From NCBI RefSeq assembly GCF_022458985.1, contig NC_061770.1:35817599-35881598 (forward strand): a stretch of 64,000 nucleotides of DNA, in the 5' to 3' direction. Of the stretch, positions 14,073 through 63,046 are shown one piece after another (the first letter of the stretch is position 1; each line of letters opens with the position of its first letter). Under the pieces are notes generated by a model. That model was not told the DNA's origin and searched no databases. It saw only the letters and a list, made by a program, of their open reading frames with translations. The DNA comes from Mugil cephalus. Its lineage: Eukaryota > Chordata > Actinopteri > Mugiliformes > Mugilidae. The position numbers and the translations under genes are program-made.

Positions 14073-14106
14073 ATGGATTATGGACTGTTCTTCATTGCAC
14101 TGTCAG
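14073..14106 (+). CDS. Gene 1 signal-peptide exon
   Basis: Codes MDYGLFFIALS plus one base of a Gly codon, before gtaggt. Joined to the next exon it makes a hydrophobic leader with likely cleavage after AFA, before QSRQYYF. An in-frame codon string upstream of exon 2 (from 14628) could give another start but lacks a conserved equivalent; the same leader exon exists in gene 2. Confidence 0.85.
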
Positions 14107-15990
14107 GTAGGTGCCTCTTGTTTGATTTTTAAAACTCTTAAAACTTAAGCAGTCTTCAAAACATAGTTTGAATGTCAGTGATGTTCAACAAATTCTTGCG
14201 TTTTCTATTACACTGCTTGTTGAACTGGTTCTGGTGGTTTTATTGTTGGCAGTGAACTCTGTCTCACTGAGACTGACTGAAGGTTATTTATACTATAATC
14301 GAAGCAGACGTATTGTTTAGGTGCTAGACGTTCATTTCAGACAGGCTGCTGGGTTGTTAGGGTGAGTGGAGCATTGTTACCCTGGATGGCAGTTGTGACA
14401 TAGTATGGAGCAGACAATGAGAGACAGCATCCAAAAATAGTAGCACCTTACAAATGGTTTTACTCGCAGCTAAGTGTTAGAATACAAAAACCTCATCAAT
14501 AAGCAAGAGTTTAGGATAAGTCCACTGAAACTCTTCTGAAACCACTTGAAGCACAATACATCTGTAGCATAAATGTATTTAATTTATTGAAAAAATAATA
14601 ATGATAATTATCTGAAATCTTACTATCTTGCATTGTAAATTAACTAAAGTGAGTACCAGAATATTTTTTGTTTTAGGAGCACTGGTCAGCGTCGCCTTTG
14701 CCCAGTCTCGCCAGTACTACTTTGTGAACGAGCAGCTGAACTGGACTGAGGCTCAGAGTTTCTGCAGAAACAACTTCACTGATCTGGCCACCATAGAAAA
14801 CATAGCTGATGTTAACGCTGTTACGAACACCGGGAAACAATCAGACTACACTGGTGAGTTCTTAACAATGTAAAATACCATTTTTAAAAAAAACTTTTTT
14901 GATGAACCTTGATATGACACTGAGGAGGATAACATTGTTGGTTGGTCAGAATGTGCTCATAAATATCGTAAATTGTTTGAATAACTGAAACATCTTTTTG
15001 AACAGGCAAAGCCTGGATAGGTCTCTATGATGACTTGGTGAACAGTTGGAGATGGTCTCTGAATGACAGCAGCTTCTATGGGGAAGGAGAAACAACGTAC
15101 AGAAACTGGGATTCTGGTCAGCCCAACAATCTTGGTGGACAGCAGTACTGTGTGGCGCTTCTTGCTCCGGATCCATACTTTGGCACATGGGATGACAGAT
15201 TGTGTAGTGATCAACTGAGCTTTGTGTGCTACAACGGTGAGTACTAAGTTTAAGTTTATTTCATTTTGTACTAAGAGAGTGAGCATTATTAAATGGCTAA
15301 ATGTGTCCTCTCTCTGCATAACATTTCCTAAAGCACCTACGCATTTGTTTGGTTGGAATCTTACTGAATCCAGACCTCTGGCTATAATCTGACATATTTA
15401 AATGTTTATGTTCATTAATATGTACCGTCCCAATAAAGAAACCATCCTGACTCAGTTTATTCAACCCTATGTTTCCAGGTACTGCTGCAGATGGGACACC
15501 AATATATATTAAGAATGAGTTAGTAGCAAACTGGACCGAAGCTCAGAGAATATGCAGGAGGGATTATGTTGATCTAGTCAGGTACAATGTTTACTACTCC
15601 CTTGTGCCCTTGTGAGGTGGTTATCTGTCATTTTAACTTTAACGTTAATGGGTGTATGCTACTCTTTCCTCCTTAACAGCATACGAAATCAGACAGAAAA
15701 TAACAACATCACACAACTGGCAAATGGATCTTTTGTGTGGATCGGCCTGTATCGGGAAAAAGTGTGGTCCGATGGGAGCGAATCTCTGTTTCGACACTGG
15801 GCTACAGGGCAACCAAATTCTGGCCTGCAGCAGTGTGTGGCCACAATGGTTAATGGCTCAGAAGAAGGACGATGGTCGGATGAAGACTGTGCCACCAGTT
15901 TACCATTCATCTGTTACTCAAGAAGTAATGCATCTGTTTTCTACTTTCACACACTGTGCATGGGTTCATACATGCATTAAGGCAGCAATG

Positions 15991-16049
<59 letters not shown>

Positions 16050-19000
16050 TAGGGCTGTGAAAGTTAACGCGTTTACTCGGATTAATCTATCGTCACAATT
16101 AATCTGATTAACACTTTAACGCAATTAATCCATCTGCAGCTCAGAATGATTATGACTGTCTCATTTCAGGCAGTTTGTCCAGTAGAGTTACCATCAGGCA
16201 TGTGCAAATGTGCAGTTCATCCTGGAGTTACAGGCAGCAGAATCAACCGATAAAGATGGAAGTCGCTAAATGCAGAGCTGCTCGTCCTCTACATGAGACG
16301 TTTGTGTGCGAAAAAAAAAAACTAAATAAAAACAAGATGGAACATTGGGCCAACATAATGTATTATGCACACTCTACAGGAAGGAGTTGTCTTTTCACCG
16401 AAGCACTTCCATCTTAAAATAGCACATTAACACCAAGCATATGTTAGTCAGCTACTCTGCTAGCACTTTGGCTAATGCATCGCCCAGCTTCACAGGGACA
16501 AACCAAAACAAACCAAGACACTGACAAGCTGGCAATGCTGGCTTACAAATATGTGTCCGCTCCTGCAACCACTGTTCACTGGGAGAGACCGTTCTCAGTT
16601 GCAGCAACATTGGAAATAAGAAGCGGTCGGCTCTCCTCTTAATGTCAACAAGTTAGATTGTCTTAGTAGCAACAGGGACACATTAATGTGGACAAAAGTT
16701 AGTTTAAAAAAAGACAATAAAGACGATAAAGAATAAATTATATTTAATTGTGATTAATCGAAATTAATCTACAGTAACCCTGTGATTAATCTGATTAAAA
16801 TTTTTGATTGTTTGACAGCGCTAATATATATAAATGACTATATGTGTATATATCAGAGGGCTGTAAATGTTTGGATCTTATTCAAAGCACTGTGGTGTAA
16901 AATGGTGCAAAACCATGTCATATAAAAACAAATACTCTCAAAAACCTTGATGCGGGAAATAATAATTCAGAACATGATCAATGCTCTGTCTTTAGGATGC
17001 TAAAAATGTCTCTTATCCCATTTGTCTAAATTTCACCCAATGCAGCAAACTTCAGATCAGCTGGACAAAATGAGACCAGCATCACTCTGCAGTGGAATAA
17101 AGTCAACGACAACGTCAGCTTCATTCTCCAGTTTAATGGTACAGAGACAAACATCATGGCACCAACTGGAGATGGACCAGTAATTCACACAGTCTCATCT
17201 CTCACTGCTGGAACTACATACACATTCACTCTCTTCTCTGTGTTTGAGAACATCAGAAGCAGTGGATTACAACTTACAGCAGTCACTGGTAAGATATTTT
17301 TAAGTTAAGTGACTTATCGAAAACATGAAAATGGAATAGACTGGCAATGTTTTTTAAACATCTGTTAAACATCTGTATTCTTTATCGCTAGCATTAGAAT
17401 TTATTCATGTGGGATGCAAAATGGACCCAATCCATTAATTATTGTTGTTTTCTTGCCAAACAAACATGTTTCATAATAAACATGGTGATCTGATACAACA
17501 GAAGTAAAATATCTTGATTTTACTTTACCACACGTTCAGGATCAGAATTGGTCAGGTTGGATGCAAAATGGTCCCAGTATAAAAGAAATGTAAAAAATTT
17601 GAGTAGAATGAACAAAAAGTCAAATTAATGTTTTCAGATTTCTTGTTCTTAAACAAAAATAATGTCTTTCATAAACAGATCATATTTTTCTAAGTTTTTA
17701 TGTTCCTCTCCATCAACATCATATTTTATCCAGTTGGGATGCAAAATGGGGCCAAAAATAGACCTTACAAACCAAATGTTTTATTTACAGAAATGTCTTA
17801 TTTTTTGTTTCAGCTCCTCTGAACACAGATAACTTCAGATCAGCAGAACAAAATGAGACCAGTATCACTCTGCAGTGGAATAAAGTCAACAACAACATCA
17901 GCTTTATTCTCCAGTTTAATGGTACAGAGACAAACATCATGGCACCAACTGGAGATGGACCAGTAACTCACACAGTCTCATCTCTCACTGCTGGAACTAC
18001 ATACACATTCACTCTCTTCTCTGTGTTTGAGAACGTCAGAAGCAGTGGATTACAACTTACAGCAGTCACTGGTAAGATATTTTTAAGATAAGTGATCTAT
18101 AGAAAACACGAAAACTTAATAGAGTGGCTGTCTGTTTTCAAAGAACCCTTTTCTGCATCAGCATTAGAATATATTCTTGTTGGATGCAACTTTGACCCTT
18201 ATTTATTTTTTCTTTCCAAACAAATATCTTTCATATAAAACATGGAAATTTGATCAAAACAGAAGTAGTAAACTAGAAAGTAAACTACTCTTTACTGTAC
18301 ATCATCTCAGAAAGACATACGTTTCCTCATTAACTGTATCAGGTTATATAAATGCTGTGAATGCTCAGTCCACATTTACGCAAAGTTTTATAAAATCTGG
18401 TTTGGCCTCTAGATGGTGCCAATGAACTTCCCTCCAAAATTTCTACATGAAATATGACACTAGAAAATATTAAAACTGAACAGAGGGGCCAATGTGATCA
18501 AAACATAAGTAGAATTTCTTGATTTTACTTTTTCTCCCATTCAACATCAGAATTGTTCAGGTTAGATGTATGATGTTTCCAGTATAAACTCAGGTAAAAT
18601 GCACAGGGAGTCAAATTAATGTTATCAGATTTCTAATTCTTGAACCATAATATTGTGTTTCATATAGTAGGAGACACTGTTTGTCAGTTTTCTTTGTTAC
18701 TTATTATCACCATCATATTTTATCCATGTGGGAGGCAAAATGGACCAAAAATCAAGATTTGACAGGTCAAAGATGTTTACAGAATTTTGTTCTGTTTCTG
18801 TTTCAGCTCCTCAAAACACAGATAACTTCAGATCAGCAGAACAAAATGAGACCAGTATCACTCTGCAGTGGAATAAAGTCAACGACAACGTCAGCTTTAT
18901 TCTCCAGTTTAATGGTACAGAGACAAACATCATCGCACCAACTGGAGATGGACCAGTAACTCACACAGTCTCATCTCTCACTGCTGGAACTACATACACA

Positions 19001-22000
19001 TTCGCTCTCTTCTCTGTGTTTGAGAATGTCAGAAGCAGTGGATTACAACTTACAGCAGTCACTGGTAAGACATTTTTAAGATGACTGACTATACAAAAAA
19101 ATAAAAACTGAATAGACTGGCAGTGTTTTTAAGGTACCTGTATTCTGTATCATCAGCTTTAGAGTTAATTTATGTGGGATGCCAAACGGACACATTCTTT
19201 TAATGATCATTATTATCAATTTCTAGTCAAACAAATATGTTTTATACAACACAAGTCAATCTGTCCAAATACAATAAGAATATCGTGGATTTTTTGTTTT
19301 TTCTTGTATTCAGTGTCAGAATTGTTCAGGTTGGATATACAATTGTACAAAAACAGGTAAAATTCTTACAATGTCAAATTAATCTTTTCATGTTTCTGAT
19401 TCTTAAACAATGATAGTTTGTTTTATGGAGTAGGAGACTTTTCTTACTTTTGGTATTCCACTTCATCACCTTATCTTATCCCATCCATGTGGGATGCAAA
19501 ATAGAGCAAACAAATACTTCACAAGCCCAATGTTTTGTTTACAGAAATGTCTTACTTTTTTTTTTTTTGTTTCAGCTCCTCTGAACACAGATAACTTCAG
19601 ATCAGCAGAACAAAATGCGACCAGTATCACTCTGCAGTGGAATAAAGTCAACGACAATGTCAGCTTTATTCTCCAGTTTAATGGTACAGAGACAAACATC
19701 ATCGCACCAACTGGAGATGGACCAGTAAATCACACAGTCTCATCTCTCACTGCTGGAACTACATACACATTCACTCTCTTCTCTGTGTTTGAGAACGTCA
19801 GAAGCAGTGGATTACAACTTACGACAGTCACAGGTAAGATATTTTTAAGATGGCTGACTATACAAAAAAAGAAAACTGAATCGACTGGCAATGTTTTTCA
19901 GGCACGTATATTCTGTATCATTAGCCAGAGTTAATTTATGTGGGAGGCAAAATGGACACATTCTTTTGATCATCATTATTGTCAATTTCTTGTCAAACAA
20001 ATATGTTTTATACAACAAAGGTGAATCTGTCCAAATACAATTAGAATATCGTGCTTTTTTTCCACTTGTGTTCAGTGTCAGAATTGTTCAGGTTGGATGC
20101 AAAATGGTCCAAATAAAAAAAATTTACGAACTCAGTTAAAATTCTCAATGTCAATAATCTTCATGTTTGATCTAACAATGATGTTTGTTTTATGGAGGAG
20201 ACTTTTTACTTTGGTATTCCAATTATCACCTTATCTTACCCATTGTGGGATGCAAATAGACAACAAATACTCCAAGCCATTTTTTAGAAATTCTTATTTT
20301 TTTTTTTTTTGTTTCATCCTCTGAACACAGATAACTCAACACAAACAAAATGAACTATATCATGCAGTGGAAAGTCAACGACATGTCAGCTTTATTCTCC
20401 ATTTAATGGTACAGAGACAAACTCATCGACCAACTGAGATGACCATAACCACACAGTCTCATCTCTCACTGCTGAATACATACACTTCACTCTCTTCTGT
20501 GTTGAACGTCAAAGCAGTGATTACATTACGCATCACTGGTAGACATGTTTAAGAGACTGACTATACAAAAATCAAACTTAATACAGTGACAGTGTTTTCA
20601 GGCACGTGTATTCTGTATCACGCTAGCTATTTATGTGGAGAAAAATGGACACATTTTTAATCAATTATCATCAATTCTTTAAAAAAATTTCATAAAACAC
20701 TGTCCAAATACAATTACATATCGTGTTTTTTTTCTTGTAGTCAATGTCAGTGTCAAAATTTCCAAAAACAAAATGTAACAGTTAAATTAAATTAATATGT
20801 TTTCATTTTGATTTAAATGAAGTTTTTTACTTTTTTGTTCATCACCTATTTTCCTGTGGATGCAAAATGGAGCTAATGATAGACCTGCAGCCTAAGTTTG
20901 TTACGAATTTTGTTCATTGTTCAGCTCTCCAACACAGATAACTCACAGCAGACAAATGACTAGTATCACCTGGATGGAATCAAATCAACAAAATGTCCTC
21001 TCCTCATTAATGTACAGAGACCACATGCACACGGATGGACCTAACTCACACAGTTCATCTCACTGCTGAACTAATCACATTCTCTTCTGTGTTGAAACGT
21101 CAGAAGCAGGATTACAACTTAAGCAGCATGTGAATTGCAAGATAATTGATCTACAGAAACATGTAACTGAATAAAGTCGCAGTTTTCAGTCATCTGTATT
21201 CCGCATTACCAGCCTTAGGTTATTATGGTGCCAATTATTAATATATTTTTAGTTTTCAAAAAGTAATTAAAACGAATATCAGATGATACTTTTGTACTAA
21301 TTGACAAAATTGTTGAGAAATGGATTAAATAAAATGATTAATTAGATTTTTGTTCTTAAAAATAAGTATTCAAAGCAACCAATTTTCTCAGTTTCTATTC
21401 CTCTCCATCCTATTTTATCGTTATGCAAAAGGAGCAAAAATCAGATTGAAGGCAAGATGTTTACAGAATTTTGCTCTGTTTCTGTTTCAGCTCCTCAAAA
21501 CACAGATAACTTCAGATCAGCAGAACAAAATGCGACCAGTATCACTCTGCAGTGGAATAAAGTCAACAACAATGTCAGCTTTATTCTCCAGTTTAATGGT
21601 ACAGATACAAACATCATGGCACCAACTGGAGATGGACCAGTAAATCACACAGTCTCATCTCTCACTGCTGGAACTACATACACATTCACTCTCTTCTCTG
21701 TGTTTGAGAACGTCAGAAGCAGTGGATTACAACTTACAGCAGTCACTGGTAAGATATTTTAAAGATGACTGACTATACAAAAAATCAAAACTGCATAGAC
21801 TGGCAATGTTTTTCAGGCACGTATATTCTGTATCATCAGCCTTAGCTTTAATTTATGTGGGATGCAAAATGGACACATTCTTTTAATCATCATTATTATC
21901 AATTTTTTGTCAAACAAATATGTTTTATACAACAAAGGTGAATCTGTCCAAATACAATAAGAATATTGTGCCTTTTCCCCCTTGTATTCAGTGTCAGAAT

Positions 22001-25000
22001 TGTTCAGGTTGGATGCAAAATGGTCCAAATAAAAAAATGTACGAACTCAGTTAAAATTCTCAGAATGTCAACTTAATCATTCATGTTTCTGATTCTTAAA
22101 CAATGATAGTTTTTTTTATGGAGTAGGAGACTTTTCTTACTTTTGGTATTCCACTTCATCACCTTATCTTATCCCATCCATGTGGGATGCAAAATAGAGC
22201 AAACAAATACTTCACAAGCCCAATGTTTTGTTTACAGAAATGTCTTACTTTTTTTTTTTTGTTTCAGCTCCTCTGAACACAGATAACTTCAGATCAGCAG
22301 AACAAAATGAGACTAGTATCACTCTGCAGTGGAATAAAGTCAACGACAATGTCAGCTTTATTCTCCAGTTTAATGGTACAGAGACAAACATCATCGCACC
22401 AACTGGAGATGGACCAGTAAATCACACAGTCTCATCTCTCACTGCTGGAACTACATACACATTCACTCTCTTCTCTGTGTTTGAGAACGTCAGAAGCAGT
22501 GGATTACAACTTACGACAGTCACAGGTAAGATATTTTTAAGATGACTGACTATACAAAAAAATAAAAACTGAATAGACTGGCAGTGTTTTTAAGGTACCT
22601 GTATTCTGTATCATCAGCTTTAGAGTTAATTTATGTGGGAGGCAAAATGGACACATTCTTTTAATGATCATTATCATAAATTTCTAGTCGAACAAATATG
22701 TTTTATACCACACAAGTCAACCTGTCCAAATACAATTAGAATGTCGTGGGGGTTTTTTTTCTTGTATTTAGTGTCAGAATTGTTCAGGTCGGATTCAAAA
22801 TTTTCCGAATAACAAAATGTATGATTTCAGTTAAAATTCTTAGAATGTCAAATTAATCTTTTCATGTTTCTGAATCTTAAACAATGATAGTTTGTTTTAT
22901 GAAGTAGGAGACTTTTCTCACTTTTGGTGTTCCACTTCATCACCATATTTTATCCAAGTGGGATGCAAAATGGAGCTAATGATAGACCTTGCAGGCCTAA
23001 GGGTTTGTTTACGGAATTTTGTTCATATTTGTTTCAGCTCCTCAAAACACAGATACCTTCAGATCAGCAGGACAAAATGAGACCAGTATCACTCTGCAGT
23101 GGAATGAAGTCAACAACAACGTCAGCTTCATTCTCCAGTTTAATGGTACAGAGACAAACATCATGGCACCAACTGGAGATGGACCAGTAACTCACACAGT
23201 CTCATCTCTCACTGCTGGAACTACATACACATTCACTCTCTTCTCTGTGTTTGAGAATGTCAGAAGCAGTGGATTACAACTTACAGCAGTCACTGGTAAG
23301 ATATGTTTAAGATAAGTGATCTATAGAAAACATGAAAACTTAATAGAGTGGCGGTCTGTTTTCAAAGAACCCTTTTCTGCATCAGCATTAGAATATATTC
23401 TTGTTGGATGCGACTTTGACCCAATTTATTTTTTCTTTCCGAACAAATATCTTTCATATAAAACATGGAAATTTGATCAAAACAGAAGTAGTAAACTAGA
23501 AAGTAAACTACTCTTTACCGTACATCATCTCAGAAAGACATACGTTTCCTTATTAACTGTATCAGGTTATATAAATGCTGTGAATGCTCAGTCCACATTT
23601 ACGCAAAGGTTTATAAAATCTGGTTTAGCCTCTAGATGGTGCCAATGAACATCCCTCCAAAAATTCTACATGAAATATGACACTAGAAAATATTAAAACT
23701 GAACAGAGGGGCCAATGTGATCCAAACATGAGTAGAATTTCTTGATTTTAGTTTTCCTCAAATTCAACATCAGAATTGTTCAGGTTGGATGTATGATGTT
23801 CCCACTATAAAAAAAGGTATAGACTAAGGTAAAATGCACAGGAAGTCAAATTAATATTTTCAGATTTCTAATTCTTGAACCATAATATTGTGTTTCATAT
23901 AGTAGGAGACACTGTTTGTCAGTTTTCTTTGTTACTTGTTGTTTACGGAATTTTGTTCTGTTTCTGTTTCAGCTCCTCAAAACACAGATAACTTCAGATC
24001 AGCAGAACAAAATGAGACCAGTATCACTCTGCAGTGGAATAAAGTCAACAACAATGTCAGCTTTATTCTCCAGTTTAATGGTACAGAGACAAACATCATC
24101 ACACCAACTGGAGATGGACCAGTAACTCACACAGTCTCATCTCTCACTGCTGGAACTACATACACATTCACTCTCTTCTCTGTGTTTGAGAACGTCAGAA
24201 GCAGTGGATTACAACTTACGGCAGTCACTGGTAAGATATTTTTAAGTTAAGTGACTTATCGAAAACATGAAAATTTAATAGACTGGCAATCTTTTTTAAA
24301 CATCTGTATTCTTTATCACTAGCATCAGAATGTATTCATGTGGGATGCAAAATGGACCCAATCCATTAATTAATGTTGCTTTCTTGCCAAACAAACATGT
24401 TTCATACAAAAAATGGTGATCTGATACAACAGAAGTAAAATATCTTGATTTTACTTTACCACACGTTCAGGATCAGAATTGGTCAGGTTGGATGCAAAAT
24501 GGTCCCAGTATTAAAGAAATGTAAAAAAGTTGAGTAGAATGAACAAAAAGTCAAATTAATGTTTTCAGATTTCTTGTTCTTAAACAATAATAGTGTGTTT
24601 CATAAACAGATCATATTTTTCTAAGTTTTTATGTTCCTCTCCATCACCATCACATTTTATCCATGTGGGATGCAAAATGGGGCCAAAAATAGACCTTACA
24701 AACCAAACGTTTATTTACAGAAATGTCTTATTTTTGTTTCAGCTCCTCTGAACACAGATAACTTCAGATCAGCAGAACAAAATGAGACGAGTATCACTCT
24801 GCAGTGGAATAAAGTCAACAACAACGTCAGCTTTATTCTCCAGTTTAATGGTACAGAGACAAACATCATTGCACCAACTGGAGATGGACCAGTAACTCAC
24901 ACAGTCTCATCTCTCATTGCTGGAACTACATACACATTCGCTCTCTTCTCTGTGTTTGAGAACATCAGAAGCAGTGGATTACAACTTACAGCAGTCACTG

Positions 25001-40000: not shown

Positions 40001-43000
40001 TTAAGATAAGTGACTTATTGAAAACATGAAAACTGAATAGATTGGCAATGTTTTTCAGACACCTGTGTTCTGTATCATCAGCCCTAGAGTTTATTTATGT
40101 AGGATGCAAAATGGACACATTCTTTCAATCTTTATTATCATCAATTTCTTGTCAATCAAGTATGTTTCATACAACACAAGTCAATCTGTCCGAATGCAAT
40201 TAGAATATCTTCGTCTTAGTTTTCCTTGTATTTAGTATCACAGTTGTTCATGTTGGATGCAAAATGGTCCAAATAAAAAACGTATACGAAGTCAGTTAAA
40301 ATTCTCAGAATGTCAAGTTAATCTTTTCATGTTTGATTCTTAAACAATAATAGTGTGTTTTATGGAGTAGCAGACTTTTCTCACATTTGGGGTTCCACTT
40401 CATCACCATATTTTTTCCATGTGGGATGCAAAATGGAACGAATGATAGACTTTGCAGGCCCAGGGTTTTATTTACAGAAATGTCCTATTTTCTGTTTCAG
40501 CTCCTCTGAACACCGATACCTTCAGATCAGCAGGACAAAATGAGACCAGTATCACTCTGCAGTGGAACAAAGTCAACAGCAATGTCAGCTTTATTCTCCA
40601 GTTTAATGGTACAGAGACAAACATCATCACACCAACTGGAGATGGACCAGTAAATCACACAGTCTCATCTCTCACTGCTGGAACTACATACACATTCACT
40701 CTCTTCTCTGTGTTTGAGAATGTCAGAAGCAGTGGATTACAACTTACAGCAGTCACTGGTAAGATATTTTTAAGTTAAGTGATCTATAGAAAACATGAAA
40801 ATTTAATAGACTGGCAATCTTTTTCAAAAATCTGTATTCTGTATCCCTAGAATTAGAATTTGTTCATGTAGGATGCAAAATGGTCCCAATCCATTAATTA
40901 TTAATTTTTTCTTGCCAAACAAATGTGTTTCATACGAGACAGGGCAATCTGTTCGAATACAATTAGAATATCTTGATTTTAGTTTTCATTATATTGTCAG
41001 TATTGTTTAGGTTGGATGCAAAATGGTCCGAATATATATATATATAAAAAAAGAGAAACCTATGAACTCAGTTAAAATTCACAGAAAGTCCAATTAACGT
41101 TTATACTTTTTTTGTTCTTAAACAACAAGAGTGTGATTCCTTGTATGGGAAATGCCTTTTCTCAGTTTTCTTTGTTACTTATTATCACCATCATATTTTA
41201 TCCATGTGGGAGGCAAAATGGACCCAAAAATCAAGATTTGACAGGCCAAAGATGTTTACAGAATTTTGTTCTGTTTCTGTTTCAGCTCCACTGAACACAG
41301 ATACCTTCAGATCAACAGGACAAAATGAGACCAGTATCACTCTGCAGTGGAATAAAGTCAACAACAATGTCAGCTTTATTCTCCAGTTTAATGGTACAGA
41401 TACAAACATCATTGCACCAACTGGAGATGGACCAGTAACTCACACAGTCTCATCTCTCACTGCTGGAACTACATACACATTCACTCTCTTCTCTGTGTTT
41501 GAGAACATCAGAAGCAGTGGATTCCAACTCACAGCAGTCACTGGTAAGATATTTTTAATATAAGTGATTTATTAGAGAACATGAAAATTTAATAGATTGG
41601 CAATCTTTTTCAAACATCTGTATTCTTTATCACAAGCATTAGAATGTATTCATGTGGAATGCAAAATGGGTACAGTTACCTATTTATTGTTAGTTTCTTG
41701 CCAAACACACGTTTCATACAAAACATGTCAATCTGACAAAATAGAAGTAAAATATCTTCATTGTAGTTTACTTCATATCCAGGTTCGGAATTGGTCAGGT
41801 TTAATGCAAAATTGTCCCACTATGAAAAAAAAAAATATAAACTCTGGTAAAATTAACAAGAAGTAAAATTAATGCCTTCACATTTCTCATTATTGAACAA
41901 TAACAGCGTATTTCAGAAAGCAGGAAATATTGTTCTGTGTTTTGTTATACTCCTCTTCATCACCATCACATTTTATGTATTTGGGATGAGAAATGGTGCA
42001 AAAAAAGAAAAAAAAAAAAAGACTTTACAAACCAAATGTTTTGTTTACAGAAATGTCTTATTTTTTGTTTCAGCTCCTCAAAACACAGATACCTTCAGAT
42101 CAATAGGACAAAATGAGACTAGTATCACTCTGCAGTGGAATAAAGTCAACAACAATGTCAGCTTTATTCTCCAGTTTAATGGTACAGAGACAAACATCAT
42201 CACACCAACTGGAGATGGACCAGTAACTCACACAGTCTCATCTCTCACTGCTGGAACTACATACACATTCACTCTCTTCTCTGTGTTTGAGAATGTCAGA
42301 AGCAGTGGATTACAACTTACAGCAGTCACTGGTAAGATATTTTTAAGATAAGTGATCTATAGAAAACATGAAAACTTAATATAATGGCAATCTTTTTCAA
42401 ACATCTGTATTCTGTATCACTAGAATTACAATTTGTTCATGTAGGATGCAAAATGGACCCAATCTATTAATTATTACCATTTTATTGCCAAACAAATGTG
42501 TTTCATACGAGACAGGGCAATCTGTTCGAATAGAATTAGAATATCTTGATTTTAGTTTTCATTATATTGTCAGTATTGTTTAGGTTGGATGCAAAATGGT
42601 CCAAATATATATATATACAAAAAAAAAACTATGAACTCAGTTAAAATTCACAGAAAGTACAATTAAAGTTTATACTTTTTTTGTTCTTAAACAACAAGAG
42701 TATGATTCCTTGTATGGGAAATGCCTTTTCTCAGTTTCCTTTGTTACTTATTATCACCATCATATTTTTTTCATGTGGGAGGCAAAATGGAGCCAAAAAT
42801 CAAAATTTGAAAGGCAAAGATGTTTACAGAATTTTGTTCTTTTTTGTTTCAGCTCCTCAAAACACAGATACCTTCAGATCAGCAGGACAAAATGAGACCA
42901 GTATCACTCTGCAGTGGAATAAAGTCAACAACAATGTCAGCTTTATTCTCCAGTTTAATGGTAGAGAGACAAACATCAGAGCACCAACTGGAGATGGACC

Positions 43001-46000
43001 AGTAACTCACACAGTCTCATCTCTCACTGCTGGAACTACATACACATTCACTCTCTTCTCTGTGTTTGAGAACGTCAGAAGTAGTGGATTACAACTTACA
43101 GCAGTCACTGGTAAGAAATGTTTAAGATAAGTGATCTATAGAAAACATGAAAACTGAGTATAGTGGCTGCCTTTTTTTTTTTTAGACAATTGTATTCTTC
43201 ATCACTAGCATTAGAATTTAGTCATGTGGGATGCAAAATGGACCCAAATTATTTATAGTTTTTTCTTACCAAACAATTGTGATATGTTTAATACAACACC
43301 TGGCAATTTGATCAAAGAGAACTCGAATATTTAGATTGTAGTTTACCTTGCATTCAGCCTCAGAATTGTTCAGATTGGATGCAAAATGGTCCAACTAAAA
43401 CATTTCTAAACTCAGATAAAATTCACAGACAGTGAAATTAATGGATTTCACGTTTCTTATTCTTAAACATTAATAGTGCGTTTCATAAAGTAGGAGGCAC
43501 TCTTTCTCAATTTGTGTGTTACTTATCATAACCATAATATATTATCTATGTGGGATGTAAAGACTTCACAGGCTAAAGGTTTTGTTTACAAAAATGTCTT
43601 ATTTTTTTGTTTCAGCTCCTCAAAACACAGAAAGCTTCAGACCAGCACAACAAAATGAGACCAGTATCACTCTGCAGTGGAATAAAGTCAACAACAATGT
43701 CAGCTTTATTCTCCTGTTTAATGGTACAGAGATAAACATCAGAGCACCAACTGGAGATGGACCAGTAATTCACACAGTCTCATCTCTCACTGCTGGAACT
43801 ACATACACATTTACTCTCTTCTCTGTGTTTGAGAATGTCAGAAGCAGTGGATTACAACTTACAGCAGTCACTGGTAAGACAATAGTTAACTGTATCTGGT
43901 TATACAGATGCTGCGAATGCTCAGTCAACATTTACATGAAGGCTTACAATACCTGGTTTGACTTCTAGATGGTGCCAATCAATTTCCCTCCAGAAATTCT
44001 ATATGAAACATGACAATTGTTCCTCATGATTCACTGTATTTTTATTGACAAGTGGCTGTGAGTTGCTAGAATCACTTTACTTTTTCTGTTTGTCTTAGTT
44101 CCTCCAAAAGCCGAACTCTTTAGACTGGTAGGACAAAATGAGACCAGTATCACTCTGCAGTGGAGTAAAGTCAACAACAACGTCAGCTTTATTCTCCAGT
44201 TTAATGGTAGAGAGACAAACATCATCGCACCAACTGGAGTTGGACCACTAACTCACACAGTCTCATCTCTCACTGCTGGAACTACATACACATTCACTCT
44301 CTTCTCTGTGTTTGAGAACGTCAGAAGCAGTGGATTACAACTCACAGCAGTCACAGGTAAGGTCATTGTTTTTTATCGAACAAAACTAAACAGTTTTATT
44401 TGTACTGATGAAAAATGTGAACTTAGAAAAAAATGCATGCTCTCATACCTAGTGTGTCACAAATAACCATATACCTTGACTAACAAAGCAACAATGAACA
44501 GTCACCACTCAGTAAACAGCAGCTGGGGGCAGTAGTGTGTTTTATTCATCAAGATACTGAACATATGAAAGGATACATAAATGGGAATGGCAGTTTCATT
44601 ACTATAGATAACATTTAGTGGAAGTGATAATAAATCACTAGAAACAGTATGTATATGATGCTGACTTTTAGGAATACTACCTTTTGTGTGTAATTATTAC
44701 TACAAAACACCCGAAAGGGGCAGGCATCATTTTTAAATGAGGGATGAGGGAAATCAGCCTGTGCCGTTGCCAACTCTGACATGGTGGCAGGACATTTCCG
44801 CCACATACACTGTCAGTGTAGGATATGAGTACCCTTTCTACAGAAGGGACTGCAGGAACCCAAGAATAGTAGGCACAGAGCACCACAATTGGTCCTCATT
44901 CTGACTCACACACCAGGTGGAAAACAGTTTCCTCCTATTTTTATACTGCAGACGATTGGAAGGTGCCCTTTAGTTCATTATAGTATGCCTGACAGGATCA
45001 GCACACAAGTTCAACAGTGTCTCTGGCCCTCCAGCTGCCAGACACACAGTTGGAGGCGTTGGGGATTGGGGTGTCAGATCCGACCCCCCCGTTGGGAAGG
45101 CGACACGGTATCTTGTGAGTTTGTGCAGAAGAGGAAACCCCGGCCAGAAGGGGGCCACCAGCAGTACCCTGTGATCCTCCTAAAGGACTCTTTGAAGCAC
45201 CAGCAAAATCAAAGGAAGGGAGGGAAAGACATAGAAAAGACTGATTGGCCAAGGGTGGGCCAGTGCATAATGGCCTAGAGTGCTGGTTGCCTCGGTCAGG
45301 GAGTACCAAAGGGGACAGTGACACCTCAGAGGTGAAGAGGTCGACCTCTGCCCTGCTGAAGCATTGGCAAATAGCTTCCACCACCTCTGGGTGGAGGCGC
45401 CATTCCCCTGACAGTAGAGAAAGTCTGCCAGGTGGCTCTGCTCTCCCTGTAGATACATTGCCCCGGAGGCTGAGCAGGTGGGGGGCAGCCCACTTGAGGA
45501 GGTCCCTCATCACCTTCAGCAGGCTTGCAGACTTGGGTCCACCCTGATGGTTGATCTGAAACACTGTTGATGTGTTGTCTGACTGTATGAGGACATGCCA
45601 GCCCCTCAAGTTGGGCAGGAAGTGCATGAGAGCCAGATGAACGACTCGCAGCTCCAGCACATTGATGTGCACCTGTCTGTGGCAGACCACTGCCCACGGG
45701 CCACTCCCCATACTAAGGAGCAGGCATCTGTGGTGACAACCTCCTTGCGAGATGGGACAGAGCACAGAGGGACGCCCCTGAGCATGTACTCCCTGTCCCT
45801 CCATGGCACCAAAGTGAGGAGACACCAGTGTGATACCTTGATCTTCCATTGCCACTTAGCATCCAGTGAAAGCTGTTCAGCCACATATGCAGAGGGCGCA
45901 GCAACAGCAAACCCAGGGGCACAACAGATGTCAGTTTGCCCATGAGCCCAGATAAGGCAAATGTCCTCGCCTCCTGAACAGGGCAAGAAGGCACAAGATG

Positions 46001-48820
46001 TCATCCACACAGTGGGGGGACAGACAAGCTGTCATGGAAACACTGTTCAAAGCCACCCCAATAAACGTTGTGGTCTGAGATGATTCTAGGCAGCTTTTCT
46101 CAAATTGACCCTAAGGCCTAGGTCGGTCAAGTGAGACAGAAGTCGCATCGTGTCTCAGGACACCTGAGACCGATAGATACCTACAGATACAGCAGAATCT
46201 TCATGCCCTGAGATTGCAAGGGCGCAAGGGCTGTGGCAATGTACCTCATGAACACCCTTGGGGAGAGGGAGAGCCAATATGGGGTGAAACCCGCCAGTCT
46301 TTTCTGGTACAAGGAAGTAGGTTGAGTAGAACCCTCTGGGGTTCTTGATGATGGTCATCTTGACCCGGACTGATGTGGGTGGCCGGTAGCGAAATTGTAG
46401 CTTGTACCCGTGGGTTAGAGTGACAATCACCCAGGGGTCTGTAGCATGAGCAGTCCACTGTTGGAACCACCTGGAAAAGGTACTTGCAGCTGATTCAAGG
46501 CTGGGCGCATGAAAGCATGTGGACCTGTCATCTGTCTCAGCAAGTGAGCTCAAAGCAGAGTTGTGGGAGCCTGGCTCAGATGCCAGGGAATCCCCATCTC
46601 CTGGGTCTTGCCCATAATCATGAAAATGGGTAGATGAAGCTGCCAGGGAGAGTGCATCATCCTCCGGAGTCAACACAGGCATCGAAGGAGTGGGTACCAC
46701 CTTGCCTTCCAACGGAGCATCAGGCCGGTCAAGTCATGAGTTCGGACTTCATTCGGGCCAGCTCCATAGTCAGGCTGGCCCGACAGGTGGAGGCCCCTGT
46801 CACCCTCCTGAGGTTCCAGCTCTGCCAGCCTGGCAGCACTCATGGCCTGAGGCAAGTAGCTGCAGTTCATGCAGGGATTGCCAGAGAGTGCATCCTGCAG
46901 GTGCTCCAGACTGAGGCATGTAGGACAATGATCATGGCCAGGGTCTGGCTGCAGAGACGCCTCAGAGATCGTACAGAGATGGGAGTCCTATCATGGTGGC
47001 CCCCCACACTTTGCTGGCCTTGTGCTGGAGTAAGGGGGTGCTCACACTGTCTGTACCAAACTAGTAGTCCAGTCATTGCTCCCCAGTCAGACGTCAAATG
47101 AGCCTCGGACAATAACGGAAGATGTGCTTCTCTACCTTTCTCTTTGGCTCTCAACGAAGGTGGTCGCATTTTTCCTCCCTCTCCTCTCCCTTATCTTCCC
47201 TGCTTTTCAACTCCTCACGTCTCATCTGTCTACTGTATATATGTTTTGAGAGACTCTCTCCGCACTGCTCTCCAAACTACAAAATCATGAAATTGATAAA
47301 CTGGTCTCTCAACGCAATTGACACAATTTTTTTCAACGAGAAGCCTGGGTTCGGGGGTGCTGGACTGCCCTGCACAAACATCCGCAGCTGGCAAACTGTA
47401 ATTTCCCAAATTTGTGGGACAAATAAAGGTTCTCTGATTCTGATTCTGATTCGGGTCGTCCAGGGGTCACAGGTGACTTTGTTGGTATACATACTCGAAC
47501 TGCGCGAAGGGGAATATCCAGTGTTTAAAGCACCACATCTGGCAGTCAGTAGGGATAAAATAGGACTCACTGCACTTCTCCTTCTCTGTCTCAGCTCCTC
47601 AAAATGCAAGAAACTTCGGATCATCAGGACAAAATGAGACCAGTATCACTCTGCAGTGGAATAAACTGAGCAACAATGTCAGCTTTATTCTCCGGTTTAA
47701 TGGCACAGAGACAAACATCATCGCACCAACTGGAGATGGACCAGTAACTCACACAGTCTCATCTCTCACTGCTGGAACTACATACACATTCACTCTCTTT
47801 TCTGTGTTTGAGAACATCAGAAGCAGTGGAGTCAGCGTCACAGTAGCTACTGGTAAGATGTATTACTTGATTAATGAGGACTCATTTACACATGACGAAA
47901 ATACTAATGATGAATTCATCATTTAATGTTGTAAATGGAAAATAGCACAGCAAAAGTGTTTTTGTTTGGTGTGAAAATCTTTCCTCTTGCTCCTACCTAG
48001 TAGTTAACATCTGCTTTTCAGTTTTCATGTTTTATTTCTTTGTTTCTTGTTTATCTGTCTTTTGCTCAGTTCTGCAAAGTCACTTTAAAAGCATAATTTG
48101 ACCCACGACAACTGACACTGTAGAGAAACCTGTTGCAAAAGTTATAAATTGGACATTAATTCATCTTAATGTATTCTTCTTTCCATGCAAACATCATCTC
48201 TCAAAAATCATATGACTCTGTTTCATACGACAAAAGGGCCTTGTAAGTATCGTTTTGGTAAAAGTATGGATATTTGTTATTGCCTCAAAATTTGCAATTT
48301 CTCAGTAATTGAAAAATACATTAATTATAATCGCTAATGGTACAGTAGAGTTAATAATACATAACTTATATATAACATTAGTATGCTGTATGTAATTTAA
48401 TTAATAGTGTCCATATCCTTGAAGAGCATAAATGTACACTATGTTTGTGCATAAGTTATAGTTATTTTAAATTTTGTTGAATATTTGCTTATATTACATA
48501 TAATTTTACTGTGTCCTGTTGTTATTTTTTATAACGTATTGTGTATTTTTGTCAACAGTTTATGTTGTTGGATTGAACGTAAGATTAAGGTCATTTGGTC
48601 AGCTGTCAGAGTCAGAGCTACAGGTTTTGTTGGAGCAGGTGAGATGAACTTCTGTTTATTTATTTCAATTCAAGTGACATAAAACTGCATTTGTCCAGTA
48701 CTAATGTTGATATATGCTGCATGCTGTTTTGTTTCTGTCTTTTATTTCATCTAGTTCTTCAGACAATACGGAGTGTCGCCACAGTCGTTGTCCCTGAAGG
48801 TTCTGTCGGTTCAGCCATGA
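14073..48820 (+). CDS. Giant secreted protein with two C-type lectin domains and at least 33 FN3 repeats (gene 1)
   Basis: Predicted extracellular carbohydrate-binding glycoprotein; I do not recognise a named orthologue. Exons: 14073-14106 (signal), 14677-14853 and 15006-15236 (lectin domain 1), 15479-15581 and 15680-15924 (lectin domain 2), then 33 intact FN3 exons between 17046 and 47852, then 48559-48638 and 48755-48820 ending in TGA. All joins keep the frame; the sum is 9435 nt, 3144 residues. Each FN3 exon starts and ends in phase 1, so any number can be skipped or added without a frame change. No transmembrane segment or GPI-like end is seen, so secretion is inferred. Automatic annotation might call it a receptor phosphatase-like or mannose receptor-like protein because of the FN3 or lectin domains; no kinase, phosphatase or membrane part supports that. 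Three more FN3 copies (near 20.4, 21.0 and 37.3 kb) are damaged in this sequence. Confidence 0.85.
14677..15236 (+). CDS. Gene 1 C-type lectin domain 1 (exons 14677-14853 and 15006-15236)
   Basis: Begins YYFVNEQLNWTEAQSFC, then WIGLYDD, GQPNNLGGQQYC, TWDDRLC and FVCYN. The Cys pattern and WIGL core are those of a C-type lectin fold. The sugar-site loop reads QPN, between the EPN of mannose-type and QPD of galactose-type domains, and the WND position reads WDD. Calcium binding is therefore plausible but specificity is open. Both outer boundaries are phase 1. Confidence 0.88.
15479..15924 (+). CDS. Gene 1 C-type lectin domain 2 (exons 15479-15581 and 15680-15924)
   Basis: Begins TPIYIKNELVANWTEAQRIC, then VWIGLYRE, HWATGQPNSGLQQC, GRWSDEDC and FICYSR. 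It has QPN and a WSD in place of WND. The two exons are separated by only 98 bp and joined through a phase-2 codon. The last exon ends in phase 1, which fits every FN3 exon that follows. Confidence 0.88.
15995..16049. repeat. (TA)n microsatellite
   Basis: Imperfect TA repeat that served as insertion site of the adjoining hAT-like element. Confidence 0.9.
16050..16823. mobile_element. Non-autonomous hAT-like element with 8-bp target duplication
   Basis: The ends are TAGGGCTGTGAAAGTTAACG on the left and, inverted, TAGCGCTGTCAAAC on the right. Both flanks carry atatatat, consistent with an 8-bp duplication although inside a TA repeat. The subterminal regions are rich in GATTAAT motifs. No transposase. 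It lies in the intron between lectin domain 2 and the first FN3 exon of gene 1 and is absent at the matching place of gene 2, so it arrived after the duplication or was lost there. Confidence 0.85.
17046..19833 (+). CDS. Gene 1 FN3 exons 1-4
   Basis: Exons 17046-17288, 17814-18071, 18807-19064 and 19576-19833. Each codes one FN3 domain with the landmarks FRSAEQNETSITLQW, NVSFILQFNGTE, TGDGPV and TAGTTYTFTLFSV, and ends at LTAVTG or LTTVTG. There are no cysteines, as is usual for FN3. Exon 1 is 243 nt, not 258: its acceptor (aatgcag) sits 15 nt further in, and the join after CYSR stays in frame. Exon 2 has NNNISF instead of NVSF. Confidence 0.88.
20327..20538 (+). pseudogene. Damaged FN3 exon copy (fifth position)
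   Basis: Recognisable as an FN3 exon but about 45 nt short through many small, mostly one-base, deletions. The acceptor tttcag is written tttca. As given it cannot be translated. The flanking intron shows the same deletion-only differences, so I suspect poor consensus sequence rather than a true pseudo-exon. Its junctions suggest a real exon of the usual length in the genome. Confidence 0.6.
20925..21132 (+). pseudogene. Damaged FN3 exon copy (sixth position)
   Basis: Fragments such as CAACACAGATA, TGGACC, ACTCACACAG and GAAGCAG follow the FN3 exon order but with dozens of missing bases, and the end lacks the normal GTCACTG|gtaag donor. It lies in the same deletion-rich tract as the preceding copy. 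The next intact exon (21491) is normal. Confidence 0.55.
21491..26763 (+). CDS. Gene 1 FN3 exons 7-13
   Basis: Exons 21491-21748, 22268-22525, 23038-23295, 23973-24230, 24743-25000, 25737-25994 and 26506-26763, all 258 nt. Differences between them are few: DNF or DTF after the start, AEQ or AGQ, KVN, EVN or QIN in the second strand, IIAP, IITP or IMAP in the loop, and GPVTH or GPVNH; the last adds a fourth N-glycosylation sequon. All keep AG acceptors after a T-rich tract and gtaag donors. Confidence 0.88.
27262..31723 (+). CDS. Gene 1 FN3 exons 14-19
   Basis: Exons 27262-27519, 28259-28516, 29165-29422, 29937-30194, 30704-30961 and 31466-31723, all 258 nt. Exon 14 reads FGSAGQ and LQFTAV. 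Exon 19 has LEW in place of LQW. Exons 16 and 17 read GPVTYTV. Exon 14 is followed by a distinct intron type (gtaagacaacagactcc) containing a relic exon start. Confidence 0.88.
27796..27830 (+). pseudogene. Relic FN3 exon start inside an intron
   Basis: After cttcag the text CTCGTCAAGATACAC and AGCTTCATATCA matches the first 35 nt of an FN3 exon, then it breaks off into intron sequence. The same truncated relic recurs at about 35187 and 38484, so it decayed once and was then copied with the larger unit. Confidence 0.65.
32230..32270 (+). other. Deletion scar: acceptor fused to intron sequence
   Basis: A complete polypyrimidine tract and acceptor (tgtttctgtttcagct) runs straight into text normally found about 150 bp upstream of an acceptor (gtgtttcatatagtagg). 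One FN3 exon with part of its intron seems to have been removed here, just before exon 20. Confidence 0.55.
32330..36679 (+). CDS. Gene 1 FN3 exons 20-25
   Basis: Exons 32330-32587, 33102-33359, 33873-34130, 34653-34910, 35652-35909 and 36422-36679, all 258 nt. Exon 20 has KVNYNVS. Exon 21 reads NIIPPTG. Exon 22 has TAGTPYTF and a QIN strand. Exon 23 has SAQQNE. This block parallels exons 12-15 in intron types and in the relic exon after exon 23, showing that several exons were duplicated together. Confidence 0.88.
35187..35225 (+). pseudogene. Relic FN3 exon start inside an intron (second copy)
   Basis: Same truncated exon beginning as at 27796, with CTCGTCAAGACACAC after cttcag. Confidence 0.65.
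37246..37436 (+). pseudogene. Damaged FN3 exon copy (26th position)
   Basis: The last 60 nt (GTGGATTACAACTT, CAGTCACTG|gtaag) are nearly normal. The first part has lost many bases and the acceptor. The deletion-rich text starts in the preceding intron at about 36800 and stops at the exon end, so the damage does not follow gene structure. Confidence 0.55.
37948..43110 (+). CDS. Gene 1 FN3 exons 27-33
   Basis: Exons 37948-38205, 38949-39206, 39732-39989, 40501-40758, 41286-41543, 42074-42331 and 42853-43110, all 258 nt. Exon 29 starts LNNDTF and has APSGDG. Exon 31 reads FRSTGQ and GFQLTAV. Exon 32 reads FRSIGQ, a variant common in gene 2. Exon 33 has FNGRETNIRAP, which removes the NGT sequon. 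Confidence 0.88.
38484..38520 (+). pseudogene. Relic FN3 exon start inside an intron (third copy)
   Basis: CTCATCAAGGCACAC after cttcag, the same truncated relic as at 27796 and 35187. Confidence 0.65.
43616..44356 (+). CDS. Gene 1 FN3 exons 34-35, more diverged
   Basis: Exons 43616-43873 and 44099-44356. Exon 34 reads NTESFRPAQQNETS and ILLFNGTEINIRAP. Exon 35 starts VPPKAELFRLVGQ after an unusual acceptor (gtcttag) and has WSKVN, FNGRE and GVGPL. The intron between them is only 225 bp. These two escaped most of the homogenisation seen in the array. Confidence 0.85.
44700..47170 (-). mobile_element. Degenerate DIRS-like retrotransposon, antisense in an intron of gene 1
   Basis: On the minus strand, pieces in different frames follow the order of a fish DIRS-type pol. 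An RT entry (GFYSTYFLVPEKTGGFHP, about 46320-46260) is followed by a linker with HLTDLGLRVNLRK near 46130. An RNase H-like part shows VVTTDACS near 45740, HINVLEL near 45660 and SDNTSTVFQINHQGG near 45560, and then EWRLHPEVVEAI and AEVDLFTSE. Part of the RT is missing and several frameshifts are present, so it is dead. Further sequence to 47170 may be the gag-like ORF. No tyrosine recombinase was recognised. Confidence 0.75.
47240..47455 (+). mobile_element. 3' tail of a non-LTR retrotransposon
   Basis: Ends in GGGACAAATAAAGG followed by a (TTCTGA)n-like tail, typical of 5'-truncated fish LINE copies. The clade is not certain. It lies between the DIRS-like remnant and FN3 exon 36. Confidence 0.55.
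47595..47852 (+). CDS. Gene 1 FN3 exon 36, terminal repeat
   Basis: Starts APQNARNFGSSGQNETS, has KLSNNVSFILRFNGTE, and ends in RSSGVSVTVATG instead of the usual RSSGLQLTAVTG. The same ending occurs only in the last FN3 exon of gene 2 (61511-61768). The last repeat therefore keeps its identity while internal repeats were shuffled. Confidence 0.88.
48559..48820 (+). CDS. Gene 1 C-terminal tail (exons 48559-48638 and 48755-48820)
   Basis: Codes VYVVGLNVRLRSFGQLSE and on to LLEQFFRQYGVSPQ, ending LSVQP and TGA at 48818-48820. It is 48 residues, has no hydrophobic membrane span and no Cys. The pattern of a GLxVRL strand, an LSESELQ helix start and a final SLKV strand looks like the tail of other fish FN3 or mucin-like proteins, possibly half of a SEA-like fold; this is inference. 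Confidence 0.75.
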
Positions 48821-49104: not shown

Positions 49105-49110
49105 AATAAA
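49105..49110 (+). terminator. Putative polyadenylation signal of gene 1
   Basis: AATAAA 285 nt after the stop codon, in sequence homologous to the gene 2 3' UTR, which has AATAAA at 63041. Confidence 0.6.
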
Positions 49111-53356: not shown

Positions 53357-53390
53357 ATGGATTATGGACTGTTCTTCATTGCGCTGTCAG
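53357..53390 (+). CDS. Gene 2 signal-peptide exon
   Basis: Codes MDYGLFFIALS, identical to gene 1. The leader continues in the next exon as GALVSITFAQSHQYYF. Confidence 0.85.
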
Positions 53391-56300: not shown

Positions 56301-56943
56301 TTCAGATCAATAGGACAAAATGAGACTAGTATCACTCTGCAGTGGAATAAAGTCAACAACAATGTCAGCTTCATTCTCCAGTTTAATGGTACAGAGACAA
56401 ACATCATCGCACCAACTGGAGATGGACCAGTAATTCACACAGTCTCATCTCTCACTGCTGGAACTACATACACATTCACTCTCTTCTCTGTGATTGAGAA
56501 CATCAGAAGCAGTGGATTACAACTTACAGCAGTCACTGGTAAGATATGTTTAAGATAAGTAATCTATAGAAAAACCTGTATTCTGTTTCACTACTGTTAT
56601 AATTTCGGCATGTGGGATGCAAAATGGACCCAATATATATCTACAGACAATTACAATATATTTAACACAACACAGGGAAATTTGATCAAAGAGAAGTATA
56701 ATATGTTGAATTTTGTTTTCCTGAAATTCAGCATCAGAATTGTTCAGGTTGGATGCAAAATGGTCCCACTATAAAAACATGTGTAAACTCAAGTAGAATG
56801 AACAGGAAGTCAAATGAATGCTTTCAGGTTTCTTATTCTTTAACAATAATAGTGTGTTTTGTAGAACAGGAGACACCTTTTCTCAGTCTTTGTGTTCCAC
56901 TTCATCATCATCATATTTGATCTAGTGAGATGCAAAATGGTGC

Positions 56944-56986
<43 letters not shown>

Positions 56987-63040: not shown

Positions 63041-63046
63041 AATAAA
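63041..63046 (+). terminator. Putative polyadenylation signal of gene 2
   Basis: AATAAA about 230 nt after the stop codon, in the position that matches gene 1. Confidence 0.6.

Follow-up and report, generated by a model that had tools for sequence, protein, structure and literature searches.

Two neighbouring genes lie on the forward strand of the window, the 64,000-nt stretch of Mugil cephalus DNA analysed here: gene A (14073..48820, +) and gene B (53357..62810, +). Gene A was rebuilt from the sequence as 40 exons, which join into 9435 nt and encode 3144 residues with a single terminal stop. The sequence-only reading of this DNA had arrived at the same 9435-nt frame and at two lectin domains followed by 33 intact FN3 exons (32 of 258 nt, the first of 243 nt, all phase 1-1); the independent exon list gives the identical length with one terminal stop and reproduces all of these counts, and the CTLD pair upstream of the FN3 array is supported by Pfam. 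The elements of gene A are as follows:

gtaagt after 13632, acceptor AG before 14064, + strand: probable 5' UTR intron, read from the sequence
14073..14106, + strand: coding exon 1, start codon and first half of the signal peptide (MDYGLFFIALSG...), GT donor, in frame with exon 2
14677..14853, + strand: exon 2, remaining signal peptide and first half of CTLD1, AG/GT, in frame, Lectin_C
15006..15236, + strand: exon 3, remaining half of CTLD1 with its ligand-site loop (QPN...WDD), AG/GT
15479..15581, + strand: exon 4, first part of CTLD2, AG/GT
15680..15924, + strand: exon 5, remaining CTLD2 (QPN...WSD), phase 1 end, AG/GT
17046..47852, + strand: FN3 array, 33 intact single-exon repeats, phase 1-1
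17046-17288, + strand: FN3 exon 1, 243 nt
17814, 18807, 19576, 21491, 22268, 23038, 23973, 24743, + strand: starts of FN3 exons 2-9, 258 nt each
25737, 26506, 27262, 28259, 29165, 29937, 30704, 31466, + strand: starts of FN3 exons 10-17, 258 nt each
32330, 33102, 33873, 34653, 35652, 36422, 37948, 38949, + strand: starts of FN3 exons 18-25, 258 nt each
39732, 40501, 41286, 42074, 42853, 43616, 44099, 47595, + strand: starts of FN3 exons 26-33, 258 nt each
48559..48638, + strand: tail exon 1 (VYVVGLNVRLRSFGQLSESELQVLLEQ), AG/GT, starts in phase 1 and ends in phase 0
48755..48820, + strand: tail exon 2, stop codon included (FFRQYGVSPQSLSLKVLSVQP*)

All 33 FN3 exons of gene A are preceded by AG and followed by GT, 32 of them with the donor gtaaga. 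The first (17046) is 15 nt short of the others because its acceptor sits at a site that corresponds to the interior of the other exons. An AATAAA stands at 49105, 3' of the tail exons; Pfam finds nothing in the tail by itself (E up to 1). Core-motif FN3 exons number 41 on the + strand of the window (33 in gene A, eight in gene B), each flanked by AG and GT, and an nhmmer profile of these 41 finds four additional places: three relics in gene A introns and the gene B exon 58501-58756. The array as assembled may contain assembly errors.

Upstream of gene A, exons 3170-3643 and 4537-4920 on the opposite (-) strand match Pfam NAGidase (E 1.3e-18; the second piece, at 3.3e-4, falls below the cut-off), and we take the gene to which they belong to be O-GlcNAcase-like. 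Retroelement-like ORFs, recognised by eye, occupy 44998-46733 (-) in the gene A intron that separates FN3 exon 32 from exon 33, where G+C is 48-49% versus 34-38% in neighbouring 2-kb windows; a Pfam search at E up to 0.01 matched neither of the (-) ORFs 45001-45855 and 46158-46733. The first 300 nt of one window flank (L013:1-300) likewise gave no Pfam match, and Rfam and tRNA scans of the 64-kb window found nothing.

The domain search of the joined protein that had been proposed earlier was carried out on three pieces: both CTLDs plus the first FN3 repeat, repeats 2 and 33 fused to each other and to the tail, and the tail by itself. Both Lectin_C and fn3 were matched. Lectin_C covers two stretches of the first piece (E 7.5e-34), in which fn3 reaches 23.5 bits, slightly below the cut-off of 25; in the second piece fn3 covers two stretches (E 8.4e-14). 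An AlphaFold2 model of one repeat, built from an alignment of 29 repeats (23 from the window, six from a locus on C16), has seven strands and a mean pLDDT of 92.7, and matches solved FN3 domains including domain 2 of human CD148, with modest E-values (nine chains at E <= 0.001).

The description of the repeats as nearly identical holds: mean nucleotide identity is 94.6% (85.9-99.6%) and mean amino acid identity 90.8% (76.5-100%) over the 496 pairs of 32 exons, with 31 distinct protein repeats among the 33. Over 32 exons dN/dS averages 0.48, or 0.42 when only the first 29 among them are counted, while three copies within the introns have decayed, which rules out chance as the reason that the FN3 exons are open. 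These relics are:

20317..20526, + strand: relic FN3 exon, nhmmer E 1.6e-36, stops in all three frames
20931..21125, + strand: degenerate, shortened relic FN3 exon, nhmmer E 1.9e-21, stops in all three frames
37303..37436, + strand: remnant of the 3' portion of an FN3 exon, covering profile positions 92-258, nhmmer E 6.1e-14

N-glycosylation sequons number 114 in the gene A protein, 105 of them in FN3 domains, where they recur at N13 (33/33 repeats), N27 (33/33), N35 (31/33), position 51 (7/33) and position 4 (one repeat). Their codons vary synonymously (ACC, ACT or ACG for T15; AAC or AAT for N27) and the residues stay constant, and therefore selection seems to act on the sequon sites; the repeats are probably heavily sugar-coated. 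None of the 33 FN3 domains contains a cysteine, all eight cysteines of the protein lying in the CTLDs.

A hydropathy scan of the gene A protein shows a hydrophobic, signal-like start and no other 19-residue window above 1.36, which fits a secreted product as far as hydropathy shows. Of the long secreted glycoprotein with two lectin heads that the sequence-only reading proposed, the secreted nature and the two CTLDs fit, with the signal-like start and the 114 sequons; the word lectin is less secure, and a place on mucosal or egg surfaces is speculative. Sugar-binding CTLDs carry E-N-E-N-D at site 2 (EPN/QPD and WND). The corresponding residues of gene A are Q-N-Q-D-D in CTLD1, by alignment of exon 3 (best Lectin_C stretch 31-146) to C-type mannose receptor 2, and Q-N-Q-S-D in CTLD2, by eye; those of gene B, also by eye, are Q-N-Q-F-D and Q-N-Q-S-D. 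Neither CTLD of gene A thus has the site of a canonical Ca2+-dependent sugar-binding C-type lectin, and the designation is doubtful because the usual Ca2+/sugar residues are incomplete in both. CTLDs can also contact FN3 domains directly, as tenascins do with lectican CTLDs (PDB 1tdq, as far as the available part of that record goes); by analogy, self-association of the gene A product through such a contact is a possibility.

Gene B follows the plan of gene A, with seven non-FN3 exons of equal length:

53357-53390, 53822-53998, 54139-54369, 54623-54725, 55036-55280, + strand: CTLD exons
55536, 56281, 57041, 57784, 58501, 59241, 59972, 60733, 61511, + strand: starts of nine FN3 exons (55536..61768)
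62549-62628, 62745-62810, + strand: tail exons

The first of these exons runs from ATG to GT and the other CTLD exons are flanked by AG and GT. Two FN3 exons, 57784 (255 nt) and 58501 (256 nt), are frameshifted; without them gene B forms a single frame of 914 codons including the stop, followed by AATAAA at 63041 and 63083. The tail exons of genes A and B agree at all but 3 of 146 nt, and the last FN3 exons, A33 and B9, group as sisters (support 0.996). Of the nucleotide differences in exons 1-5, which encode the signal peptide and the CTLDs, 31 lie in residue-changing codons and nine in unchanging ones, or 0.050 residue-changing and 0.054 not changing per site. The 24 residue changes cluster in the CTLD1 loop (10 of 40 residues versus 14 of 223 elsewhere; Fisher p 0.0009, which is optimistic because the loop was picked after the alignment had been seen). 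The FN3 exons of A and B are 93% identical on average and the gene flanks about 89-95%, apart from one 5' stretch at 77%; the array introns of gene B are about 25% different from those of gene A, versus about 5-11% for the flanks over most of their length. Three of the eight internal gene B introns have a gene A intron among their top five matches, at best about 73-76% identical, and for the other five the top five are all gene B introns. FN3 exons may have been exchanged between the two genes; alternatively, old intron families may have been retained differently in A and B without inter-gene exchange.

The exons and introns of the array appear to have had different histories. The comparison used 28 of the 32 array introns (498-743 nt, selected by a length window of 450-800 nt that left out four of other lengths), giving 378 pairs. 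The introns group into families of similar introns, as defined by a single-linkage cut at 0.10. Over all pairs, the mean intron p-distance is 0.231, versus mean exon differences of 0.068 at synonymous and 0.034 at nonsynonymous sites. When pairs are binned by intron divergence (<0.03, 0.03-0.08, 0.08-0.15, 0.15-0.25 and 0.25-0.5, with 5, 22, 37, 96 and 218 pairs), the exon synonymous means are 0.048, 0.052, 0.082, 0.062 and 0.070, that is, a slight initial rise and then a flat course while the bin-mean intron divergence runs from 0.02 to 0.28. For the five intron pairs below 0.03, there are 70 differences over 2580 sites in the flanking exons and 64 over 3144 in the introns; 59 of these 70 exon differences fall on the 28 polymorphic sites shared across the array (second allele present in three or more copies), where 10.9% would be expected for evenly spread new mutations.

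Linkage within and between exons and introns points in the same direction. Across one set of 27 copies, the four-gamete test fails for 61% of 231 site pairs in exons and for 28% of 21,528 in introns, and r2 declines with distance, in exons from 0.16 at less than 60 nt to 0.05 and in introns from 0.24 to 0.17. When only the 10 copies of the largest intron family are compared, the gap narrows (72% exon versus 55% intron), and therefore the introns recombine too. Some association with the upstream intron is seen in the first 43 nt of the exon (ratio 0.70; 4 of 23 sites at p < 0.05, uncorrected), and little or none in the other five exon segments (ratios 0.84-1.07); no link to the downstream intron was seen (ratios of 0.85-1.17 for six segments, 0 of 23 sites passing). 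The FN3 exons are nearly unlinked to the introns that adjoin them, an observation that is new here. This pattern suggests homogenisation limited to the exons, and its simplest account would be exchange mainly within exons, whether through conversion or through unequal crossovers inside them. Nonet's proposal for the repeated exons of teleost piccolo b was unequal crossing over between repeated-exon regions, in preference to gene conversion (PMC3484663, available part).

A search of the 634.8-Mb genome with an FN3 query (E <= 0.001) gave 50 matches, 43 in the window and seven on C16, the latter 30-48% identical to the query. The C16 locus contains FN3 exons with the motif QNETSITLKW, a hydrophobic stretch (by eye) and three Y_phosphatase exons. 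The best matches of the phosphatase pieces are two-domain chains of PTPRS, LAR, PTPRF, alpha, epsilon, gamma and zeta (E 9.6e-72 to 4.8e-50), followed by chains of PTPRB (3e-49), PTPRJ (6e-48) and PTPRH (6e-46), which stand well above the listed shorter chains of other types, e.g. 2nv5 (5e-36); an R3-type receptor phosphatase fits these matches. With less than 50% identity between the array and the phosphatase FN3 domains, the two may go back to a shared source, with no direct descent of one from the other. Two repeated FN3 exons on C16 (L010 9122-9376 and L011 352-606) have identical translations, and recent exon copying is therefore not confined to the lectin-like genes.

CTLD matches number at least 156 in the genome (150 of 238 candidates scored), many as neighbouring pairs that can be read as dual-CTLD genes on C1, C20, C11, C14 and other chromosomes; outside the window, the match with the lowest E-value among those listed has 49% identity. 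One dual-CTLD gene (L015) has a phase-1 intron after CTLD2, into which 1-1 FN3 exons can therefore enter with the frame intact. The intron that splits CTLD2 in the window (15582-15679 in gene A, 54726-55035 in gene B) has no counterpart in the CTLD2 exon of L015, and may therefore have been gained. Descent of the gene A tail from dual-CTLD tails was plausible by eye (L015 has a phase-0 intron and a similar helix pattern) and failed two shuffle tests: 30 of 200 and 333 of 2000 shuffles scored at least as high, versus 0 of 1000 for each of three known tails used as controls; the exon pairs of the comparison tails were joined by eye, with splice sites checked for L015 only. A search of the genome with the gene A tail found only two copies, both in the window (genes A and B), and two tail pieces compared with loci L009-L038, which include the window flanks L013 and L014, gave nothing convincing (best E 0.86), though such short queries could miss distant kin. 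With no detectable kinship between the tail and dual-CTLD tails, an insertion into a dual-CTLD gene may be argued from CTLD likeness and intron phase.

These observations could be combined in the following manner. Gene A would be functional in this fish and encode a secreted product roughly 3,100 residues long, composed of a signal peptide, two CTLDs, an FN3 rod and a short tail; the rod would comprise 33 FN3 domains bearing 105 sequons. FN3 exons of receptor-phosphatase type may have been inserted into a dual-CTLD gene, in a phase-1 intron that follows CTLD2, and may then have multiplied by unequal exchange. Given the strong patterns in the array, the exons would then have been homogenised by conversion or crossover inside them while the introns diverged. 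An FN3 domain is 3-4 nm long, so that a rod of 33 would be of the order of 100 nm. In the most tentative step, the product would be a soluble recognition molecule with a probable part in innate or mucosal defence, its CTLD heads changing fast and its glycosylated rod setting them apart or multimerising them. A defensive recognition role draws indirect support from the rapid change in the CTLD1 loop and from the clustering of CTLDs in the genome. The intact frame, the domains, the splice phases, the constraint on the repeats, the conservation of the sequons and the paralogue B can all be read directly from the DNA, and to the whole account (working secreted gene, copied FN3 rod, exon homogenisation, receptor-phosphatase-type source and recognition role) we assign a probability of about 0.7. 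A bolder version, for which the odds fall just short of even, sees the array as a self-renewing polymer in which exchange is limited to the 258-nt exons, with the drifting introns as barriers and perhaps exchange between A and B too. If so, repeat number should vary between individuals and species as in a mucin VNTR, and the array would be the counterpart of such a VNTR made of folded, glycosylated domains that carry fast-changing heads.

Other explanations account for parts of the evidence. Selection alone, acting also on synonymous sites through splicing or codon use and without exchange between repeats, would be consistent with the dN/dS of 0.42-0.48 and the gtaaga donor of 32 of the 33 exons, and some of the exchange pattern might be imitated by repeated mutation at a handful of hot sites; selection would not, however, make exon variants independent of their own introns or yield 61% four-gamete failure, and exons beside near-identical introns differ mostly (59 of 70) at sites polymorphic throughout the array, so that we consider selection alone improbable. 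Rather more weight, with the odds still clearly against it, is due to the idea that transcripts use a subset of the FN3 exons, the full 33-repeat protein being rare or absent. A stalk of variable length is possible because every FN3 exon of gene A is symmetric (phase 1-1), and the two broken exons of gene B could be skipped with the frame kept, whereas all 33 exons of gene A are open and the repeats are on average constrained.

A membrane receptor whose transmembrane exon was missed would agree with the C16 relatives, which belong to a receptor phosphatase, and with hydrophobic stretches in the 3' introns and beyond: the unspliced sequence from the last FN3 exon of gene A to gene B contains 10 open stretches with a hydropathy window above 1.9. 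The spliced model, however, has no strongly hydrophobic window past its start, and the tail exons join in frame, differ between A and B at so few positions (3/146 nt) and are followed by AATAAA, which makes a receptor a poor prospect. That gene A is a decaying or non-coding duplicate, as its three relic exons and the two broken exons of gene B might indicate, is hardly credible against a 9435-nt open frame across 40 exons and a repeat dN/dS well below 1.

Similar proteins are annotated in teleost databases. The sequence-only reading held that C-type lectin plus FN3 without a membrane anchor is not a standard vertebrate architecture and that FN3 arrays of this uniformity are uncommon; the former needs qualifying in view of the published Fugu groups CFN3 and F1 (PMC514892), and the latter has a more extreme precedent in the lamprey tenascin TN50 (PMC11401434), both sources as partly available. 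In the Fugu survey of Zelensky and Gready (2004), an unclassified CFN3 is entered as 'Protein with CTLD and FN3 domains' (PMC514892, Table 1), among U-group models that the authors call the lowest in quality; this line of 2004 is the only description of a fish CTLD and FN3 type met in the literature searched, and gene A, with CTLDs and FN3 in one protein, resembles CFN3 by description only. Group F1 of the same survey consists of soluble proteins with two or three CTLDs, for which its authors found no mammalian orthologue (PMC514892). Gene A shares with F1 the two CTLDs (Lectin_C, two stretches) and, by the hydropathy scan of the spliced model, the soluble nature without a transmembrane domain; it differs in its 33 in-frame FN3 domains, FN3 not being mentioned for F1 in the available text, and, by a criterion of our own, in its tail, which is unlike those of the dual-CTLD loci of the Mugil cephalus genome.

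In the R3 phosphatases (PTPRB/H/J/O/Q), FN3 domains are mostly encoded by single exons with phase 1:1 introns (PMC5336234, available part), a feature found in gene A as well; their membrane span and cytoplasmic phosphatase appear neither in the gene A pieces scanned with Pfam nor in the hydropathy profile. Lamprey TN50 has 131 FN3 domains, many of them identical (PMC11401434, available part), and thus shares the very long array, but has EGF-like and fibrinogen-related domains where gene A has CTLDs; no Pfam match to either was seen in the scanned gene A pieces, which cover the CTLDs, FN3 repeats 1, 2 and 33 and the tail. In teleost piccolo b, a single symmetric zinc-finger exon was amplified 8 to 16 times (PMC3484663, available part), as the symmetric FN3 exons were here, but in a synaptic protein, with another domain and fewer repeats. 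Since Fugu CFN3 and lamprey TN50 precede it, neither the pairing of CTLD and FN3 nor a long uniform FN3 array is new in gene A; two CTLDs with 33 FN3 repeats, or a decoupling of exons and introns in such a gene, were not found among the matches listed in the literature searched. To the fish CTLD and FN3 type gene A adds a detailed gene model, and its array is a natural case for separating exon and intron histories, in which exon-limited homogenisation is testable with population data.
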